Positions 7,495 to 29,209 of a DNA stretch of 64,000 nucleotides are shown piece by piece. The notes under the pieces were generated by a model that saw nothing but the letters and a program-made list of their open reading frames with translations, made no database searches and had not been told where the DNA came from. The stretch spans positions 1 to 64,000 of the forward strand of contig CAOKHZ010000015.1 of the NCBI GenBank assembly GCA_948468385.1, written 5' to 3'. Origin of the DNA: an uncultured Faecalicatena sp. (GTDB lineage Bacteria; Bacillota; Clostridia; Lachnospirales; Lachnospiraceae). Within the stretch, counting starts at the first letter, position 1. The number at the start of each line of letters is the position of its first letter. Position numbers and translations under genes: made by a program.

Positions 7495-8053
7495 TCATAA
7501 TTGAAATGGGCGGGAAGCCATTTTAAGGCTTTCCCGCCTTGGTTGCCTGTCAGCAAAGGCGGACGGGACTGTCAACGGCGGTGCTTGCTCCGGGTCGCTG
7601 TCCTCGCTGGCGGCTTCATTAACGGTCTGCAACAATCCTTTCAGCGGGTTGTCCTCTGGGACGCTGAAAAAATCCTACCTGTGGGCTTCCCGCAGGTCAA
7701 GGGCTATGCCGTTTATGTCCTGCTGTATCACATGGCGGCAAAAGCTGTCATCGTCAATGTGGGCGGTGACAAGCTGTCTTAACTGCGGGTCGGTCAACCC
7801 GGGATTGTACTGCTTCATAATCGTTGCTCTCATGGTGTCTACTATGGCGTTTACGGCCTGCACCTGCTTCACCGCCACGCCGTAAAACTTCGCCAGCCTG
7901 AATAAGGGCATAGTGGCTGATGTCCTTGAAGTCGTCCGCTTCATAACTGCCCAGCGCAGATTTGGGGAGGTGCGTCTGCTCCGCAAGCTGTTCCAGCGTC
8001 AAGCCACGCTCCGCACGCAGGTCTTTCAATCGTTCTGGTATGGATAAAGACAT
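7495..8053 (-). pseudogene. broken XRE-family regulator of an integrative element
   Basis: Starting at the ATG complementary to 8051-8053, the product begins MSLSIPERLKDLRAERGLTL and contains a clear helix-turn-helix (LEQLAEQTHLPKSALGSYE). After HYALIQ the frame is lost. It resumes in another frame as LAKFYGVAV, then QYNPGLTDPQLRQLVTAHIDD and DLREAHR, where an in-frame TAG (about 7675) interrupts. The coding signature continues after it (DFFSVPEDNPLKGLLQTVNE). As I recall the intact family, these are ICE-encoded XRE regulators of about 250 residues, so the centre is also deleted. A clear scar of a former conjugative element. Confidence 0.7.
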
Positions 8054-9766: not shown

Positions 9767-9816
9767 TGTTTGAATCAATTGTTCCGTTGCTTTCCTTGCT
9801 TAAATCAATTACTCCG
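9757..9816. repeat. imperfect tandem repeat, two copies of about 29 bp
   Basis: The pattern TGCTTTCTTTGTTTGAATCA-ATTGTTCC is repeated at once as TGCTTTCCTTGCTTAAATCA-ATTACTCC. The first copy includes the descending arm of the hairpin at 9722-9766. It reaches the stop region of the hydrogenase gene. Confidence 0.55.
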
Positions 9817-11271
9817 GTGCATGGAGAATTCGTATTTGCTGTATTCTGCCACGGTATCCGTCACGAGACGGTCATCGGCCCTTCCGAGTTGTTTGTCACG
9901 CTCGCGCTTGAACGCCCGCTCTTCCTGAATGTTGCCTGGGCCGGCCACGCAGCCTCCCGTGCAGGCCATTCCCTCGATGAAGTCCTCGGGAAGCTTTCCG
10001 GCTTTTAACAACATAAGTGCCTTGCGGCATTCGGCCGCGCCGTTGCACTGCCTTACGTTCAGGCCGCTGGTGCCACCGTGTTCTATGTATGCCTGCTTTA
10101 CGGCCTTGGTCACGCCGCCGGAATTGGAATAATTTTTCGCGTGGATGCTGCCGTTTTGCGTCTCTTCCTGAGTGACGGGTTCGAGCTTGATGCCCTTGGC
10201 GCGGAGCATGGCGCGGAATTCTTCAAAGGTCAGAACCAGATCCGCGTTTTCTCCTTCCTTGTCCTGCACTTGTCCGGCCTCGCTCTTTTTCGCAATGCAA
10301 GGCCCGATGAAAATGCAGACTGCACCGGGATGCATGGCCTTGACGAGCCTTGCCGTCGCCGCCATCGGGGAAACCGTGGTGGAAATGTGGTCGGCAAGCT
10401 CCGGGAAATGGCGGCGAATCAGATGTACGAACGCAGGGCAGCAGGAAGTCGTCATCTTTTTGCCCGCCTCATGCGCCTCGGCCCATTCCTTGGCCTCGGA
10501 ATCCGATACGAAGTCCGCCCCAATCGCCACGTCCACCATGTCCGTGAAGCCCATCTTTTTCACGCCCTTGCGAATAGATTCCATCGTGATGTCCATGCCA
10601 AACTGCCCCTCCGCCGCCGGAGCCACCAACGCGTATACCGGGCGGCCGCCCTTCAAATGTTCGATAACCTCAAGCATGCGGGAACTGTCAGAAATCGCGC
10701 CGAATGGGCACTTGCTGATGCAGGAACCGCAACGGATGCATTTTTCGTCGTCAATCCATACCCTTCCGTCCTCGTCCGCCTGAATCGCGTCCACTGGGCA
10801 GGCGCGGCGGCAAGGGCGCATGATGTCCACGATCGCGTTGTAGGGACATGCGTCAAAGCACTGGCCGCATTCCTTGCATTTTTCAGGGTTGATGTAAGCC
10901 TTGTCGCGTGCCATCGTGATGGCACCGAACTTGCACGCCTGCATGCACTTCTTGCCCATGCATTTCTGGCAGTTGTCCGTCACCGTGAAACGGGTGATGG
11001 GGCAGTTCTCACAAGCCGATGGCAAAATTTTCACCGTGTTGTGGCATGGCTCGCCATTGGCCGGGTTGATATTTTTCGCGAGCATGATTCGCTCGCGTAC
11101 GATTTCCCGTTCCTTGTGGATACAGCAACGGAATTTTGGCTTGTTCCCGGGAAGGATTTCATAAGGCAGGGCGGTCTCTATCCTATGCAGGTTCCCTTCA
11201 AAAGCGGCCTTGGCGACTTGGTAGAGCACCTCGTCCTTTACTTCTCCAATAGTATTGTTCTCGTGTAACAT
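9805..11271 (-). CDS. hydA: monomeric [FeFe]-hydrogenase, group B-like
   Basis: A 488-residue iron hydrogenase that reduces protons with ferredoxin electrons in fermenting cells. The N-terminal half holds Cys clusters for [4Fe-4S] centres, including CENCPITR, CQKCMGKKCMQACKFGAI, CKECGQCFDACPYNAI and CIRCGSCISKCPFGAI. The H-cluster motifs follow: TTSCCPAFVHL (L1), FIGPCIAKKSEA (L2) and MACTGGCVAGPG (L3). TSCCPAF instead of the group A TSCCPGW form points to group B. AGGAGG lies 6 bases before the ATG at 11271; the open frame extends to 11319. HydE is encoded 34 kb away; HydF and HydG are not in the window. Confidence 0.9.
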   Translation of the reverse strand: MLHENNTIGEVKDEVLYQVAKAAFEGNLHRIETALPYEILPGNKPKFRCCIHKEREIVRERIMLAKNINPANGEPCHNTVKILPSACENCPITRFTVTDNCQKCMGKKCMQACKFGAITMARDKAYINPEKCKECGQCFDACPYNAIVDIMRPCRRACPVDAIQADEDGRVWIDDEKCIRCGSCISKCPFGAISDSSRMLEVIEHLKGGRPVYALVAPAAEGQFGMDITMESIRKGVKKMGFTDMVDVAIGADFVSDSEAKEWAEAHEAGKKMTTSCCPAFVHLIRRHFPELADHISTTVSPMAATARLVKAMHPGAVCIFIGPCIAKKSEAGQVQDKEGENADLVLTFEEFRAMLRAKGIKLEPVTQEETQNGSIHAKNYSNSGGVTKAVKQAYIEHGGTSGLNVRQCNGAAECRKALMLLKAGKLPEDFIEGMACTGGCVAGPGNIQEERAFKRERDKQLGRADDRLVTDTVAEYSKYEFSMHRSN

Positions 11272-17668: not shown

Positions 17669-17914
17669 AAAAGACGGTTTGTTCCGAAAAATGGCGATTT
17701 GTTCGAAAATAGTAGATAATAGGGAAATTCAGGTGATTTCGGTTTCAGCAGCTACGTCTGCAATTATGGATTGGTATTTAGTTGATTCAGGCAAACTCTT
17801 CAAGTGCGGGCGTTATCTGCAACGGGAACTATAAAATTCAACAGTTATCATATGGATGGTTTTACTAGCAAGTTATAATAGGTATAAGTGATGAAGGGAG
17901 CGTGAGTTGTTAAT

Positions 17915-18553
17915 ATGAAAACATTAATAAATTATAAAAGAAAACTAATGCTGCTACTGATTGTTGTAATTGTTATTGCGTCGATATGTTTCATATGGCT
18001 CAATAAAATGCCATATGACGGAGAAGCACAGGTTTCTTATTTAAAAGGATCTTTTGTCATTGATTATAACAATTTGAGTGCAGTAGTTGGAGATGCGGAC
18101 TATGTGTTTGTAGGTGAAGTTGTAAGTGAAGATGGCACGGAGTATAGGGATTATGTGACGGTAGAAACAGAGACGGGAGGATCAAAGGTGGTTGGTGATC
18201 CCTATACGAAATATACGATTATTGTTACCGAAAATATCAAGGGAAATTTAATAACGGAAGAAGCTTTTCCAATTATGAAATATGGTGGAGTATCAGAAGA
18301 TGGCCGTGCATGTTATCTATTTGAGGGCGACGAACTTCCCGTGGTAGGCGGTACATATATCTTTTTTGCTTATGCCCAGGAAGATGGATCATTACTGATT
18401 AGTGGTCCAGTGTCGAATGTGCCTATGGAGAATGATGAGGGAGTGGCCAGAATGAATAATGATGCAATAACATATGAAGAAGTGGTAAATGCATATCAAA
18501 ATCAAATTGATTCAGGACGGAAACGGGCAGTTTCGACATATGAAGAAAAGTAA
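17915..18553 (+). CDS. secreted or anchored protein, paralogue of 20014-20820
   Basis: A 212-residue protein with an N-terminal hydrophobic segment (about 12-29) acting as signal anchor. The exported domain has the line DADYVFVGEV, YTKYTIIVTENIKGNL, GGVSEDGRACYLFEGDELP and GGTYIFFAY. The protein at 20014 repeats it (DADYVFVGKV, YTDYNVAVIQNIKGNLTTQE, GGLTKNGMACCLFSWDMYP, GEEYVFYV). So this is a locally duplicated beta-rich domain of unknown function. It lies between an ABC transporter and a broken C39-like protease, which hints at a secreted-peptide or cell-surface role. Confidence 0.6.
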   Translation: MKTLINYKRKLMLLLIVVIVIASICFIWLNKMPYDGEAQVSYLKGSFVIDYNNLSAVVGDADYVFVGEVVSEDGTEYRDYVTVETETGGSKVVGDPYTKYTIIVTENIKGNLITEEAFPIMKYGGVSEDGRACYLFEGDELPVVGGTYIFFAYAQEDGSLLISGPVSNVPMENDEGVARMNNDAITYEEVVNAYQNQIDSGRKRAVSTYEEK

Positions 18554-24209: not shown

Positions 24210-24274
24210 TGGGGCTGTTCATAGGAACGCAAAAATGACGGAGGACACGATATTGATTGAGAGGGGGCGTTGTG

Positions 24275-24904
24275 ATGCATGACACTGCGGTAGAGATGGC
24301 CAAAAGACTTTTGGTGGATAGCATATGGAAGAGTGCTAATTTGGAAGGTCTGGGAACTACGTTCCCGAAAACGGAGGCAATTCTTGCCAATGCGCCGACC
24401 AACACGAGGACGGAAGAGGTATTATTTGTCATCAACATGAAACGAGCCTGGCAATTCCTTTTGGATAACTTGAACTATGATAATTGCATTGCCTTGTTAA
24501 GGGAATATGATAAAATCGTTGGAGAGTTGTTATTCCATTATGCAGGGGAGATAGGGACGATTCCCGTGCAGATTGGCGGTACGTCATGGGAACCGGAGAT
24601 GCCCCATGCGGGGATTATCATGGACATGTTGGATGAGATTGAGCAAATAGAAGATGTTGAGCAAAAGGCTTTGAAATATTTTTGCTATATTGCCCGTACC
24701 CAGATGTTTATCGATGGAAACAAGAGGGTCGCGCAGCTAATGGCAAACAAGGTCTTGATTGAAAATGACGTTGGAATTTTCCAGATTCCAATTGAGCGGC
24801 TGGAAGAGTTTAAGGGAATGCTGTTGGAGTTCTACGAAAGCGGAGATGACGTGAAAATCATTGCATTCATGAAAGAATATTGTATTCGGCGGGTACGGCA
24901 CTAA
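24275..24904 (+). CDS. Fic-family protein with Gln in place of the catalytic His
   Basis: A 209-residue Fic-domain protein. The Fic loop reads QMFIDGNKR (in ARTQMFIDGNKRVAQLMANK), where the consensus HxFx(D/E)GN(G/K)R has His first; here Gln replaces it. An N-terminal SANLEG (about residues 18-23) fits the inhibitory SxxxE(G/N) helix of class II Fic proteins. Fic enzymes AMPylate target proteins using that His, so activity is doubtful or altered. GTG/ATG 24272-24275 follow GAGGGGGC. It stands alone between tRNA-Val and an Uma2 remnant. Confidence 0.75.
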   Translation: MHDTAVEMAKRLLVDSIWKSANLEGLGTTFPKTEAILANAPTNTRTEEVLFVINMKRAWQFLLDNLNYDNCIALLREYDKIVGELLFHYAGEIGTIPVQIGGTSWEPEMPHAGIIMDMLDEIEQIEDVEQKALKYFCYIARTQMFIDGNKRVAQLMANKVLIENDVGIFQIPIERLEEFKGMLLEFYESGDDVKIIAFMKEYCIRRVRH

Positions 24905-24991: not shown

Positions 24992-25206
24992 ATGATGGCG
25001 GTCGCGATGGAATTGGAGGAAATGTATACGATTGAGGATATCTATGCCTTGCCGGAGGGGCAGAGGGCGGAGTTGGTTGACGGATAGATTTACTATATGG
25101 CGTCACCGAGCAGGACACCTTTGAAGAGTTCACGTTTTCGGACAAGGTGAAGGCCGGAATTTATGAGGATTTTGAGATTGATTTCTCGAAGATGGAAACA
25201 GATTAA
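24992..25206 (+). pseudogene. Uma2-family (DUF820) endonuclease-like remnant
   Basis: After GAAAGGAG the frame starts MMAVAMELEEMYTIEDIYAL and PEGQRAELVDG, then TAG, then IYYMASPSR: the N-terminal pattern of Uma2 proteins (YTIEDIYALPEGQRAELIDG-IYYMAPP). The middle is deleted. The C-terminal frame EEFTFSDKVKAGIYEDFEID ends at 25206. A stop and a large deletion make it a pseudogene. Confidence 0.65.
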
Positions 25207-25249
25207 GCATTGTGGATGGCATTTTGTAGGAAAGGTGTTTGAAAAAGAG

Positions 25250-27025
25250 ATGGAAAATACGATTCAGTTGAAAACGGTGAACGAGCTTTTGCCATATTCA
25301 TTCTTTATCCCGTCGTACCAGCGGGGCTATCGCTGGACGCCTTGCGAGGTGCGGGACTTGCTGGATGACATTGATGAATTCGTCCCGAGGGAGATACAAG
25401 GCACGGAGAACAAGACGTGGTATTGCTTGCAGCCGGTCGTGGTCAAGGAGATGCGGGAAGACGCGGATTTTGGCAGATGCGAGGAGTGGGACGTGTCCGG
25501 CAGCGGTGAAATTTCCGAGGCTGGGAAGGTTTACGAGGTGATTGACGGGCAGCAGCGTCTGACGACGATTTATCTCGTTTTGCATTATCTGAACCAGGAC
25601 TTCGTGGAAAAGAGACGGGACAAGTTGTTTTCCATCAATTACCAGACGCGGAAGGAATCCATGGAGTTTTTGAAAAACCCAGACAAGGAGGACGACTCGA
25701 ACATTGATTTCTTCCATATACATAACGCCTACAAGACCATTGAGGAATGGTTTGACAAAAAGGAAGAGGATTCGAGCTTTGACAAAAATGAATATCGGTC
25801 AAAGTTAAAATTTTCGACGAAAGTCATCTGGTATGAGACGGCGGAGGACAACCCGACGAAGGTGTTTACGAGGCTCAACATCGGGAAAATCAGCCTGACA
25901 AACGCGGAATTGATCAAGGCGTTGTTTTTGAACAGTTCGAATTTCCATTCCAGTGATATGGAAAATATGAGGCTTCGGCAATTTGAAATCGCGGGCGAGT
26001 GGGATAATATCGAGTGGGATTTGCAGGGGGACAAGTTCTGGTATTTCCTAAGTGACGAGGATAAGCGGGACAACCGTATTGAGTACATTTTCAACTTGAT
26101 GAACGAGCTGGGCGACAAGGAGGGTTACTCCGCGTTTCGCTATTTTAGCGGGAGGCTTGATGGCTCGGAAGAAAGCTTGAAACGGACGTGGGAAGAGGTG
26201 CAGGGCTATTATCAGCGGTTTGACGAGTGGTTCCACGACCGGGAGCTTTATCACAAGATCGGGTTCATCATCACGGCGGGCATTGCCAAGATCAAGAAGT
26301 TGTACGACGAATCGGCCAAGTTGAAAAAGAGCGAGTTTAAGGCATATCTTGACGATTTGATAAAGGAACATTATCGTGGAATCGACTTGTTTGATTGTGA
26401 TTATGACAGCAAGCATACGAAAGGCGTACTGCTTTTGTATAACATTTTGACCATGTTGCAGAACGAGCATGATTCCTCGTATTTTCCATTTGACGCGTTC
26501 AAGCTGAACAAGTGGAATATCGAGCACATTGCCTCGAAAAAGGACGCGGCATCCGTACCCGGGGCCGCGAGGAGGGAATGGCTCTCGGATGTCTTGTGTT
26601 ATATCGAAAGGAAAGAAAAGAGTGAGAGGGAGCTGGCCCGCCGCGTTCAAATGGTTTTGGATGAAGAAAATTACGAGGACGACGTGTTCAATCCCGTTTT
26701 TGACGACGTCACGGATTATTTTAACCAACATATCAAGCAGGACGTGGAGATTGACGGGATTTCCAACTTAGCGTTGCTGGATGAGAAAACGAACAAGGGG
26801 TATAAAAACGCCGTCTTTCCGTTAAAAAGGAAGTACATCATTGATTTGGACAAGGGCGGCGGTTTCGTCCCATTGTGTACGAAGAACGTGTTTTTGAAAT
26901 ATTTTAGCGATTACCCGCCGAAAATATCGTTCTGGACGCAGGATGACCGGGAAAAATACGAGGAAGACTTAAAAAGGGTATTGGGCGGATATTTGGAGGT
27001 CACGGGTGGCGACGGACACGAATGA
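25250..27025 (+). CDS. DUF262/DUF1524 protein (GmrSD-like), first of a pair
   Basis: A 591-residue protein. The N-terminal DUF262 (ParB-like NTPase-type fold) shows FIPSYQRGYRWT (about 18-29) and VIDGQQRLTTIYLVLHYL (about 97-114). The C-terminal DUF1524 nuclease region has WNIEHIASK, where the usual motif is IEHI-x-P-Q, and SNLALLDEKTNKGYKNAVFP with the N-x-x-L-L-x-x-x-x-N spacing. GmrSD-type proteins restrict modified phage DNA. Start 25250 (MENTIQLKTVNELL) fits other family N-termini, though its ribosome-binding site is weak; the frame opens at 25163. The end lies in a duplicated junction with the next DUF262 gene. Confidence 0.8.
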   Translation: MENTIQLKTVNELLPYSFFIPSYQRGYRWTPCEVRDLLDDIDEFVPREIQGTENKTWYCLQPVVVKEMREDADFGRCEEWDVSGSGEISEAGKVYEVIDGQQRLTTIYLVLHYLNQDFVEKRRDKLFSINYQTRKESMEFLKNPDKEDDSNIDFFHIHNAYKTIEEWFDKKEEDSSFDKNEYRSKLKFSTKVIWYETAEDNPTKVFTRLNIGKISLTNAELIKALFLNSSNFHSSDMENMRLRQFEIAGEWDNIEWDLQGDKFWYFLSDEDKRDNRIEYIFNLMNELGDKEGYSAFRYFSGRLDGSEESLKRTWEEVQGYYQRFDEWFHDRELYHKIGFIITAGIAKIKKLYDESAKLKKSEFKAYLDDLIKEHYRGIDLFDCDYDSKHTKGVLLLYNILTMLQNEHDSSYFPFDAFKLNKWNIEHIASKKDAASVPGAARREWLSDVLCYIERKEKSERELARRVQMVLDEENYEDDVFNPVFDDVTDYFNQHIKQDVEIDGISNLALLDEKTNKGYKNAVFPLKRKYIIDLDKGGGFVPLCTKNVFLKYFSDYPPKISFWTQDDREKYEEDLKRVLGGYLEVTGGDGHE

Positions 27026-27089
27026 AGACGGCGCGAAACGGGAATTGGGTGAATGCTTGGAGGTCACGGGTGGCGACGGACACGAATGA
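27006..27089 (+). CDS. relay mini-ORF 1 created by the junction repeat
   Basis: GTG 27006 follows GGAGGT by 5 bases. The 27-residue product starts VATDTNEDG and ends CLEVTGGDGHE: the head resembles the second DUF262 protein (MAMNTNDN) and the tail resembles the first (YLEVTGGDGHE). Its start overlaps the stop of the upstream gene by 20 bases. Translation is plausible; peptide function is doubtful. Confidence 0.35.
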   Translation: MATDTNEDGAKRELGECLEVTGGDGHE

Positions 27090-27153
27090 AATCGACGCAA
27101 AACGGGAATTGGGTGAATGCTTGGAGGTCACGGATGGCGATGAACACGAATGA
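27070..27153 (+). CDS. relay mini-ORF 2 created by the junction repeat
   Basis: GTG 27070 follows GGAGGT by 5 bases. The 27-residue product starts VATDTNEID and ends CLEVTDGDEHE. It overlaps mini-ORF 1 by 20 bases and the next DUF262 gene by 20 bases, repeating the same coupling. Confidence 0.35.
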   Translation: MATDTNEIDAKRELGECLEVTDGDEHE

Positions 27154-29209
27154 CAACATGACGTTTTATGAATTGATTCAGGAAAAAAGGGTGGAGATTC
27201 CGATTATCCAACGCGATTATGCGCAAGGGCGGGAGGATAACTGGGAAATTTGCCGCAATTTTTTAAAGGCGATAAGGGAAAGCGTGGAAAATGAAAGCGC
27301 GGTGAACCTTGACTTCGTATATGGTAACGTGAAGGGCGACGTGTTTTATCCATTGGACGGGCAGCAGCGGCTGACGACGCTATTTTTGCTGCATTGGTAT
27401 GCCTGCATGAAGGAACGGCCAGAGGATATGGGCATCAGGGAGACGCTCTCGAATTTCACGTATGAAACGCGGATGTCCTCGCGGAGGTTTTGCAAGGCGC
27501 TGATGTCAAACGTCACCGCGATTTTCGCGGATGGGGGGGCGGATGGCCACGCAGCGGGGGTCGCGGCCAGACGGGAGCGGGAACCTAGTGGGGCGATTGA
27601 GGATGCCAAGTGGTTTTTTGCCTCTTGGCGGCAGGACTCTACGATTCGCGCGATGTTAAATACCATCGACATGATTCATGAGCTGTTTTTCGAGGTCGAG
27701 GATTTATGGGGAGCGCTTGTGGAGAAGAAATTGGTCACGTTCCACTTGCTGATATTGGAGGATTTCGGGTTGTCGGATGACTTGTACATCAAGATGAACG
27801 CACGCGGGAGGCTCCTCACCCCGTTTGAAAATTTGAAGGCCGAGATTTTGGACAAGGCTCAGAAGGGCGGCTGGCAATGGGAGGAAGCCCTTCCGCTCGA
27901 GGAGAAATTTTCCTATAAAATGGATCGGGAGTGGACGGACTTCGTTTGGGATGGCTATCGGAAGAACGACCTGGTGGATGAGCCGCACATGAATTTTATC
28001 ACGACGCTGGTCATGTTCCGGGTGGCCAAGAATCCGAAGCTACGGGGAGAAAAGCGCGCGGACGTGATAAGTCAGTTGAATGAAAACCACGCGGATCGAA
28101 AGCTGATTCACTATATTGACGAGAAGACGTTCGAGTATATTTATGAATGTTATGAATTATATGCGAATGCGGTGCATGGAACGGAAACGGCGGAACCAGG
28201 GACACATGGCGTGACTTCAAAGCGGGTGATCCCTGAGCTGACGTTTGACATGTGGCGGCATCGGCCGGAAAAAAATTTGCTGTACCAGATTTTGGTCGGG
28301 AACAGGCCGTCGTACACGCACAAGGTGCTCTTTTACGCGCAGACGGAGTATTTGCTTCGAAACGAGAACGTGGGCGAGGAGAAATTTTTGGACTGGATGC
28401 GGGTGGTGCGAAACATTGTTTCCCGCGCAAATATTACGCCGGACGGCAAGCGTTACGACCTCATCCGAAGTCCGGAGGCGTTTGGCGGCGTGATGGATCT
28501 GGTTCGCGGCCTTGCCCGTGGCTGCGGTGACATTTATCATTATTTGAATACGAATCCGCTGATTCCCGCCTATGCGAAGGAGCAGATGAGGGAGGAGAGG
28601 ATAAAGGCGCGGATTATCTGCGCGAACCCGGCGCACAAACAATTACTGTTTGATTTGGAAGATAATGAACTGTTGCGCGGGAGGATTTTGTTCGCCTTGC
28701 AATGTGCGGGATACCGGTCGGACATCGCGGAGATTGACTTTGTGCGGCTTGCGCAGATTCGTGATGTTTTCAAACGGTATTTTAATAAGGAACTGGAGAC
28801 GGGGGCGGATGAATTCGACCTGCTTCGGCGCGCGATGCTGACCATCGAGGTGAACGGGGAATATTGTTTCTATAAATATTGGTGGTCGTATTGGTATGCG
28901 GGCGATGCCGACAAGCGGAAGCTGTTTCCGGTATTCCGGGAAATGGAGGATTTCGTCGTTTCGAAGTCTTACGGGGAATATTTTGCAAAATTGGTGGGTC
29001 TTCTTATCGATAGGGACTATCAGGAAATCATTGACCATTTCGTGAAACCGGAAAACATGGAAAATTGGCAGTATCGCCTGATTAAAGAAGAGGACTTGCT
29101 GAAGAACTGCAAGTCGAAATATATCGCGATACCGGAAGACGGGACGTGCTGCTACCTTTTGAAAAGCAAGAGGACGACGGACATCGAGGGAAGCCCGAGG
29201 GTGGAGTGA
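27134..29209 (+). CDS. DUF262-family protein, second of the pair
   Basis: A 691-residue DUF262 protein. Motifs are IPIIQRDYAQGR (about 21-32) and PLDGQQRLTTLFLLHWY (about 73-89), with DDLYIKMNARGRLLTPFENLKAE split over about 213-235 as the usual third block. The C-terminal 350 residues are helical and I see no HNH or DUF1524 motif, so it probably lacks the nuclease. ATG 27134 follows GGAGGT by 5 bases inside the third copy of the junction repeat. The neighbouring DUF262/DUF1524 protein is the likely partner; joint DNA restriction is inferred. Confidence 0.75.
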   Translation: MAMNTNDNMTFYELIQEKRVEIPIIQRDYAQGREDNWEICRNFLKAIRESVENESAVNLDFVYGNVKGDVFYPLDGQQRLTTLFLLHWYACMKERPEDMGIRETLSNFTYETRMSSRRFCKALMSNVTAIFADGGADGHAAGVAARREREPSGAIEDAKWFFASWRQDSTIRAMLNTIDMIHELFFEVEDLWGALVEKKLVTFHLLILEDFGLSDDLYIKMNARGRLLTPFENLKAEILDKAQKGGWQWEEALPLEEKFSYKMDREWTDFVWDGYRKNDLVDEPHMNFITTLVMFRVAKNPKLRGEKRADVISQLNENHADRKLIHYIDEKTFEYIYECYELYANAVHGTETAEPGTHGVTSKRVIPELTFDMWRHRPEKNLLYQILVGNRPSYTHKVLFYAQTEYLLRNENVGEEKFLDWMRVVRNIVSRANITPDGKRYDLIRSPEAFGGVMDLVRGLARGCGDIYHYLNTNPLIPAYAKEQMREERIKARIICANPAHKQLLFDLEDNELLRGRILFALQCAGYRSDIAEIDFVRLAQIRDVFKRYFNKELETGADEFDLLRRAMLTIEVNGEYCFYKYWWSYWYAGDADKRKLFPVFREMEDFVVSKSYGEYFAKLVGLLIDRDYQEIIDHFVKPENMENWQYRLIKEEDLLKNCKSKYIAIPEDGTCCYLLKSKRTTDIEGSPRVE

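Follow-up and report, generated by a model that had tools for sequence, protein, structure and literature searches.

Tandem repetition of the junction between two adjacent DUF262 genes in a Lachnospiraceae genome and the overlapping mini-ORFs within it

In Vibrio cholerae, TgvAB has been described as a two-protein type IV restriction system of the GmrSD family, for which both proteins are reported to be required and an effect of their stoichiometry is raised by the authors (PMC11411939). On a more general level, a stop-to-start spacing of about -8 to +10 nt has been used as the range for coupled gene pairs, overlapping pairs are described as often encoding heteromeric complexes (PMC10666635), and a spacing of -4 is given as the commonest one and among the most efficient (PMC10666635, PMC12548453). 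Here, we analysed a stretch of 64,000 nucleotides (the window) from an uncultured Faecalicatena sp. of the family Lachnospiraceae (assembly GCA_948468385.1, contig CAOKHZ010000015.1), in which, as in the TgvAB system (PMC11411939), two DUF262 genes lie adjacent to each other. The spacing at their junction (-20) falls outside the range above, and the junction itself is repeated in tandem with a 64-bp period, leaving two overlapping mini-open reading frames (mini-ORFs) between the genes. We consider it probable that this array is a copy-variable minisatellite placed on the coupled junction between the two genes of a pair that is TgvAB-like and presumed to be anti-phage, and a by-product of duplication rather than a selected tuner.

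The tandem array and its start sites

Both genes are encoded on the forward strand, and the array, SDs, mini-ORFs and ATGA motif of their junction are given on the same strand. Gene 1 (TgvB-like, 25163–27025; DUF262/GmrSD_N, Pfam PF03235, E 1.3e-30) ends at the stop codon 27023–27025, and gene 2 (TgvA-like, 27134–29209; DUF262/GmrSD_N, PF03235, E 3.4e-18) encodes 691 aa from ATG 27134. An earlier note on this DNA had located a 64-bp tandem repeat exactly where the two genes meet, and this was confirmed by direct reading and by Tandem Repeats Finder (TRF), which reported in the window an array at positions 26971–27157 with a period of 64, 86% matches, no indels and a score of 276, whereas the best score in 20 simulated windows (first-order Markov) was 61. 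The repeat unit was as described, but its extent (2.5 copies from 26993) had to be corrected to 2.9 copies that begin within the gene 1 tail and reach into the gene 2 head, because a diverged repeat copy is present in the gene 1 tail (EDLKRVLGGYLEV next to EDGAKRELGECLEV) and the array is thus longer than had been stated. A search of the own genome with the junction stretch returned a single location, that of the window itself.

Each unit carries a Shine-Dalgarno sequence (SD), GGAGGT, followed by 5 nt and a start codon, with the three SDs at 26995–27000, 27059–27064 and 27123–27128 and the corresponding starts at GTG 27006, GTG 27070 and ATG 27134, the last one being that of gene 2. The first two starts open mini-ORF 1 (27006–27089) and mini-ORF 2 (27070–27153), both of 27 codons plus stop and each with the beginning of gene 2 joined to the end of gene 1. 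Successive overlaps between gene 1, mini-ORF 1, mini-ORF 2 and gene 2 are of 20 nt at all three steps, and the frames form a chain since each 64-bp unit restarts, details that agree in full with those given in the earlier note. The diverged copy in the gene 1 tail suggests that the 64-bp unit arose by joint copying of the gene 1 tail and the gene 2 head. The two internal units of the window differ at 4 of 64 positions.

No special RNA fold hiding the SDs was detected, as the fold energies matched those of shuffled sequences (z of 0.82, 1.07 and -0.37), and a masking of the SDs by RNA structure was rejected on these grounds. Since these SDs look strong from their sequence, with no special structure hiding them, fresh initiation would be expected at each start, and translation of the mini-ORFs is likely.

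Copy number in relatives and rarity of such junctions

The comparison of copy number among relatives that the earlier note had proposed was carried out, and start-site numbers indeed differed between genomes. Of 12 genomes in the genus, counting the own one, three were found to have the gene pair, and all three also have the repeat. These belong to three species, with three start sites in the window, two in L008 (a contig of genome G011) and three in L009 (a contig of G006); TRF listed the array in the window and in L009, without the shorter array of L008. Along the eight start sites, the core TTGGAGGTCACGG-RTGGC showed 17 of 18 invariant positions, the sole change being the A/G of the start codon. 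The units of L009 were identical to one another over 2.5 copies and different from those of the window, which would mean that, within a lineage, units have been homogenised or duplicated anew. The shared stop carries a mutation in L008, so that the mini-ORF extends to 33 codons and overlaps gene 2 by 38 nt; step spacing is thus -20 throughout in the window and L009, and -20 followed by -38 in L008. The divergence between the internal units of the window is similar to that of gene 1 between the own genome and L008 (5%), and the array may thus date back to that split.

Outside the genus, 14 junctions of the pair were examined, corresponding to eight of the 12 non-own genomes with a match in a first search (weak matches L018–L021 were dropped), four of the 10 genomes from a further search (weak matches L034–L039 were dropped) and two of 16 plasmid records, with starts set by the analyst from the sequence or the record annotation. 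All 14 presented one start site, a spacing of -8 to +12 and no array; 13 of them lay within -8 to +10, and the other one (L017) had a spacing of +12. Because all the outside junctions examined lack the array, the single junction is probably the ancestral state.

The search for two fixed-spacing SD/start patterns over 397 genomes of the family yielded 15 matches for one pattern and 18 for the other, with two of these 18 in the window itself, and a TRF array over a pattern match was found only at the window locus and in genomes G348 and G344. The G348 array (L056/L064) consists of seven copies of a 21-bp unit inside a longer open frame of the same strand, and the G344 array (L078, 1499–1580) of 2.5 copies of a 33-bp unit with an SD-and-ATG-like string, inside an open frame of 223 codons. 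Because each of the two has a unit length that is a multiple of three and falls within a single longer open frame, neither was accepted as a junction cassette; the L078 array is probably a coding repeat, and that of G348 was likewise taken for one. That duplicated SD/start cassettes are a habit of the whole family was also rejected, as with these two patterns the only two arrays besides that of the window are of this coding type. In the form searched, with fixed SD spacings, such arrays at gene junctions are rare.

A scan of 281,717 bases (the window, 200 kb of G006, L008 and L009) gave 40 TRF rows with a period of at least 20, a count that covers these sequences only and in which many rows come from a few repetitive genes. 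Small arrays are thus frequent in the sequences scanned, with examples in gene 2 of L008 and directly downstream of gene 2 in L009, and this speaks for the by-product reading. Among these arrays, an SD and a start repeated in register were found only in the DUF262 junction rows of the window and L009, and the junction arrays L040, L042 and L043 from the 200 kb of G006 showed no repeated SD and start. The latter three are intergenic (17728–17966, 7624–7786 and 9788–9862, respectively), and a unit similar to GAGCTTAGCGAAAAGAACTTCCTT is common to those of L042 and L043, which may belong to a dispersed repeat family. In addition, L067 contains at about 1497–1590 a direct repeat of roughly 30 bp, with GGAGGTAAGAGATG appearing twice at a 64-bp lag and flanks that do not repeat. 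Finally, titles and abstract openings from a literature search suggested no natural case of a tandemly repeated coupled junction, which is not proof of absence.

Origin of the relay and its possible effect on expression

The origin that we favour would begin with a tandem duplication of the minisatellite type at the junction where the two genes of a TgvAB-like GmrSD operon are translationally coupled. Afterwards, in at least one of the lineages within this Lachnospiraceae genus, the array would have changed its copy number and its units would have been homogenised. As the copied unit contains an SD, a start codon and the stop of the upstream gene, a chain of overlapping mini-ORFs would arise more or less automatically. 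When every 30–120-nt segment containing the SD and the start was duplicated in silico at six outside junctions of the pair, the frame opened by the first start terminated no more than 25 nt from the next start in 42–69% of the cases, depending on the junction, and within -8 to +10 of it in 32–66%. The relay linkage is therefore close to a coin toss after a duplication, and not a rare design. In a drift simulation, the mini-ORF stayed open in 82% of the trials after four random substitutions and in 64% after ten, and the open frame was thus rejected as proof of selection. Regarding the encoded peptides, the ratio of non-synonymous to synonymous changes per site (pN/pS) was 0.88–1.43 in the five comparisons out of six that had changes (1–2 synonymous and 3–7 non-synonymous in each), compared with 0.06–0.10 for gene 1 and, on the codon alignment, 0.13–0.18 for gene 2. 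On these very few sites, no sign of purifying selection on the mini-peptides was detected by pN/pS, and a conserved mini-peptide was rejected with values near 1.

With respect to expression, ribosomes would translate the mini-ORFs, and gene 2 would receive ribosomes both from fresh initiation at its own SD and, to a weak degree, from re-initiation along the chain. In an E. coli study summarised in PMC12548453, a growing overlap strongly lowered coupling, with none left at -25, and the same source describes stricter spacing needs in two Firmicutes. Because coupling is reported to drop so steeply with overlap size, the -20 chain should relay poorly. A simple flux model was run with four re-initiation values: at low or moderate re-initiation each added unit dampened the flux from gene 1, gene 2 tended to its own initiation rate, and a gain with copy number appeared only at 0.95 with fresh starts. 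The claim of the earlier note that coupling is kept at any copy number is not supported, given the 38-nt last overlap of L008, the poor performance of -20 in E. coli reporters and the attenuation in the model. The effect of the array on the protein ratio would be small, probably attenuating or insulating, and a tuning function is possible.

Several observations weigh against a mere by-product. Each of the three genomes of the genus that carry the pair has retained two or more start sites, intact SDs and the 64-bp spacing, with no indels. Exact repeats are usually unstable, and the retention of start sites and spacing despite this could reflect selection. Likewise, the array does not appear to be very recent, judging from the 4/64 differences between internal units set against the 5% of gene 1. 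Coupling across large overlaps is also known, with coat-lysis spacings of -38 and -50 for phages fr and MS2 (PMC12548453), and the mini-ORFs are only predicted to be translated.

The alternative proposed in the earlier note, a selected expression device in which ribosomes are handed on by the relay mini-ORFs from gene 1 to gene 2 and copy number tunes the proportion of one DUF262 protein to the other, is unlikely. In its favour, the SD and start are intact at all eight sites, and the number of sites varies among genomes; the need for both TgvAB proteins with the stoichiometry effect raised (PMC11411939), the heteromeric complexes often encoded by overlapping pairs (PMC10666635) and the large-overlap coupling of MS2 and fr (PMC12548453) also speak for it. 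However, its linkage arises readily by chance (42–69%), its peptide is unconstrained on the few sites available, L008 has lost the shared stop, a spacing of -20 couples poorly in the E. coli reporters described in PMC12548453, and the variation concerns three genomes only, with two or three start sites.

A stronger version, in which the copy-variable relay is a frame-neutral contingency dial that sets the ratio of two phage-defence subunits, seems decidedly unlikely. If true, slippage would lengthen or shorten the chain and leave the frame of the downstream gene unbroken, whereas known phase-variable repeats switch genes off; should copy number alter the ratio, this would be an unusual contingency locus, with dosage stepped by repeat number without killing the downstream gene. 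If it is no more than a by-product, the junction still offers a clean natural case of small ORFs created by the tandem duplication of a coupled junction, and it cautions that small-ORF relays, however neat, may emerge without selection.

An ATGA, absent from the earlier note, is formed at every relay stop (27022, 27086 and 27150), and it could be argued that this -4 arrangement is the working restart, with ATG 27086 (ATGA 27086–27089, at the stop of mini-ORF 1) or ATG 3953 of L008 (at the stop of gene 1) giving gene 2 an N-terminal extension of 16 residues. Both codons are in frame with gene 2, and their spacing is the commonest and among the most efficient (PMC10666635, PMC12548453), so that only under this reading would the junction fall within -8 to +10, but they lack an SD at the proper distance and the equivalent frame of L009 meets a TGA after four codons. 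Moreover, the homologues align well with start 27134: from there, the conserved region of gene 2 lies about as far away as it does in L010, L011, L012 and L030, for which the analyst chose the starts. Such a restart is thus very unlikely. An assembly artefact, with the repeat inserted or miscounted by the assembler, is extremely improbable, because L008 and L009 also carry the pair with the 64-bp repeat in separate genome records and the own units differ at several bases, unlike a simple re-joining of one sequence, even though these are many-contig assemblies, the L008 record is a metagenome-assembled genome and the count of identical units in L009 could be wrong.

The two genes and comparison with described systems

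The DUF262 motifs QR and DGQQR were read in both translations. In gene 1, the true start is likely ATG 25250, because the first 29 residues of the longer frame begin in remnant upstream DNA. A gene of the Uma2 family, which precedes the pair in both L008 and L009, is apparently truncated in the window (25107–25116, versus 1583–2137 in L008) by a deletion of ~340 bp with ~10 bp shared at its ends, and the N-terminal extension of gene 1 starts in this remnant. Towards the C-terminus of gene 1, residues H455, N535 and N544 were invariant over 11 aligned homologues, several of them partial. The match to PF07510 (GmrSD_C) was below the Pfam cut-off (E 0.073), and the predicted structural model had a mean predicted local distance difference test score (pLDDT) of 60, with low confidence at 455–460, 525–537 and in the DUF262 half. 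Beyond PF03235, no further significant Pfam domain was detected in gene 2; NCBIfam contained no family for either protein, and no match to viral contigs was found.

Gene 2 carries in this genus in-frame variable inserts (A2 alignment columns about 149–200 and 412–440) that are absent from four aligned homologues of other genera, one of them being a 39–42-bp tandem array (L008, 5198–5321), and a 38-bp tandem array directly follows gene 2 in L009 (6113–6237). In addition, a Fic/DOC-family gene with a weak match to PADLOC PDC-S04 lies upstream of the pair in the window (24257–24904) and also in L008, a possible defence neighbourhood.

By its architecture, the pair resembles TgvAB and likely belongs to the same family, and it is presumed to be an anti-phage system. 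As in the description of TgvAB, one partner shows conserved H, N and N residues toward the C-terminus, those of gene 1 being compatible with the H...N...H/N site of TgvB (PMC11411939). Unlike the system described there, the nuclease-type gene comes first, the GmrSD_C match of gene 1 is below the Pfam cut-off and no type I restriction-modification domain was found in the nine neighbouring ORFs scanned, a subset of those present.

The junction also shares with termination-reinitiation coupling an upstream stop placed beside an internal SD and a downstream start, in pairs that are described as enriched for subunits of one complex (PMC6728339, PMC10666635, PMC12548453). The outside homologues of this pair, at -8 to +12, follow that arrangement, whereas in the window the -20 spacing lies outside the efficient range, the junction is repeated and mini-ORFs intervene. 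In bicistronic design (BCD) vectors, the stop of the leader overlaps the next start. These vectors likewise place a short translated leader ORF ahead of the target gene (PMC5995908), but they are engineered and have one leader, whereas the present case is natural, has two leaders with 20-nt overlaps and is known from sequence alone. Finally, short tandem units with a copy number that differs among relatives (3, 2 and 3 start sites between species) and homogenised units, as in L009, are also features of bacterial minisatellites (variable-number tandem repeats), although, unlike the usual ones, this array straddles the boundary between two genes, with a start site within each of its units.

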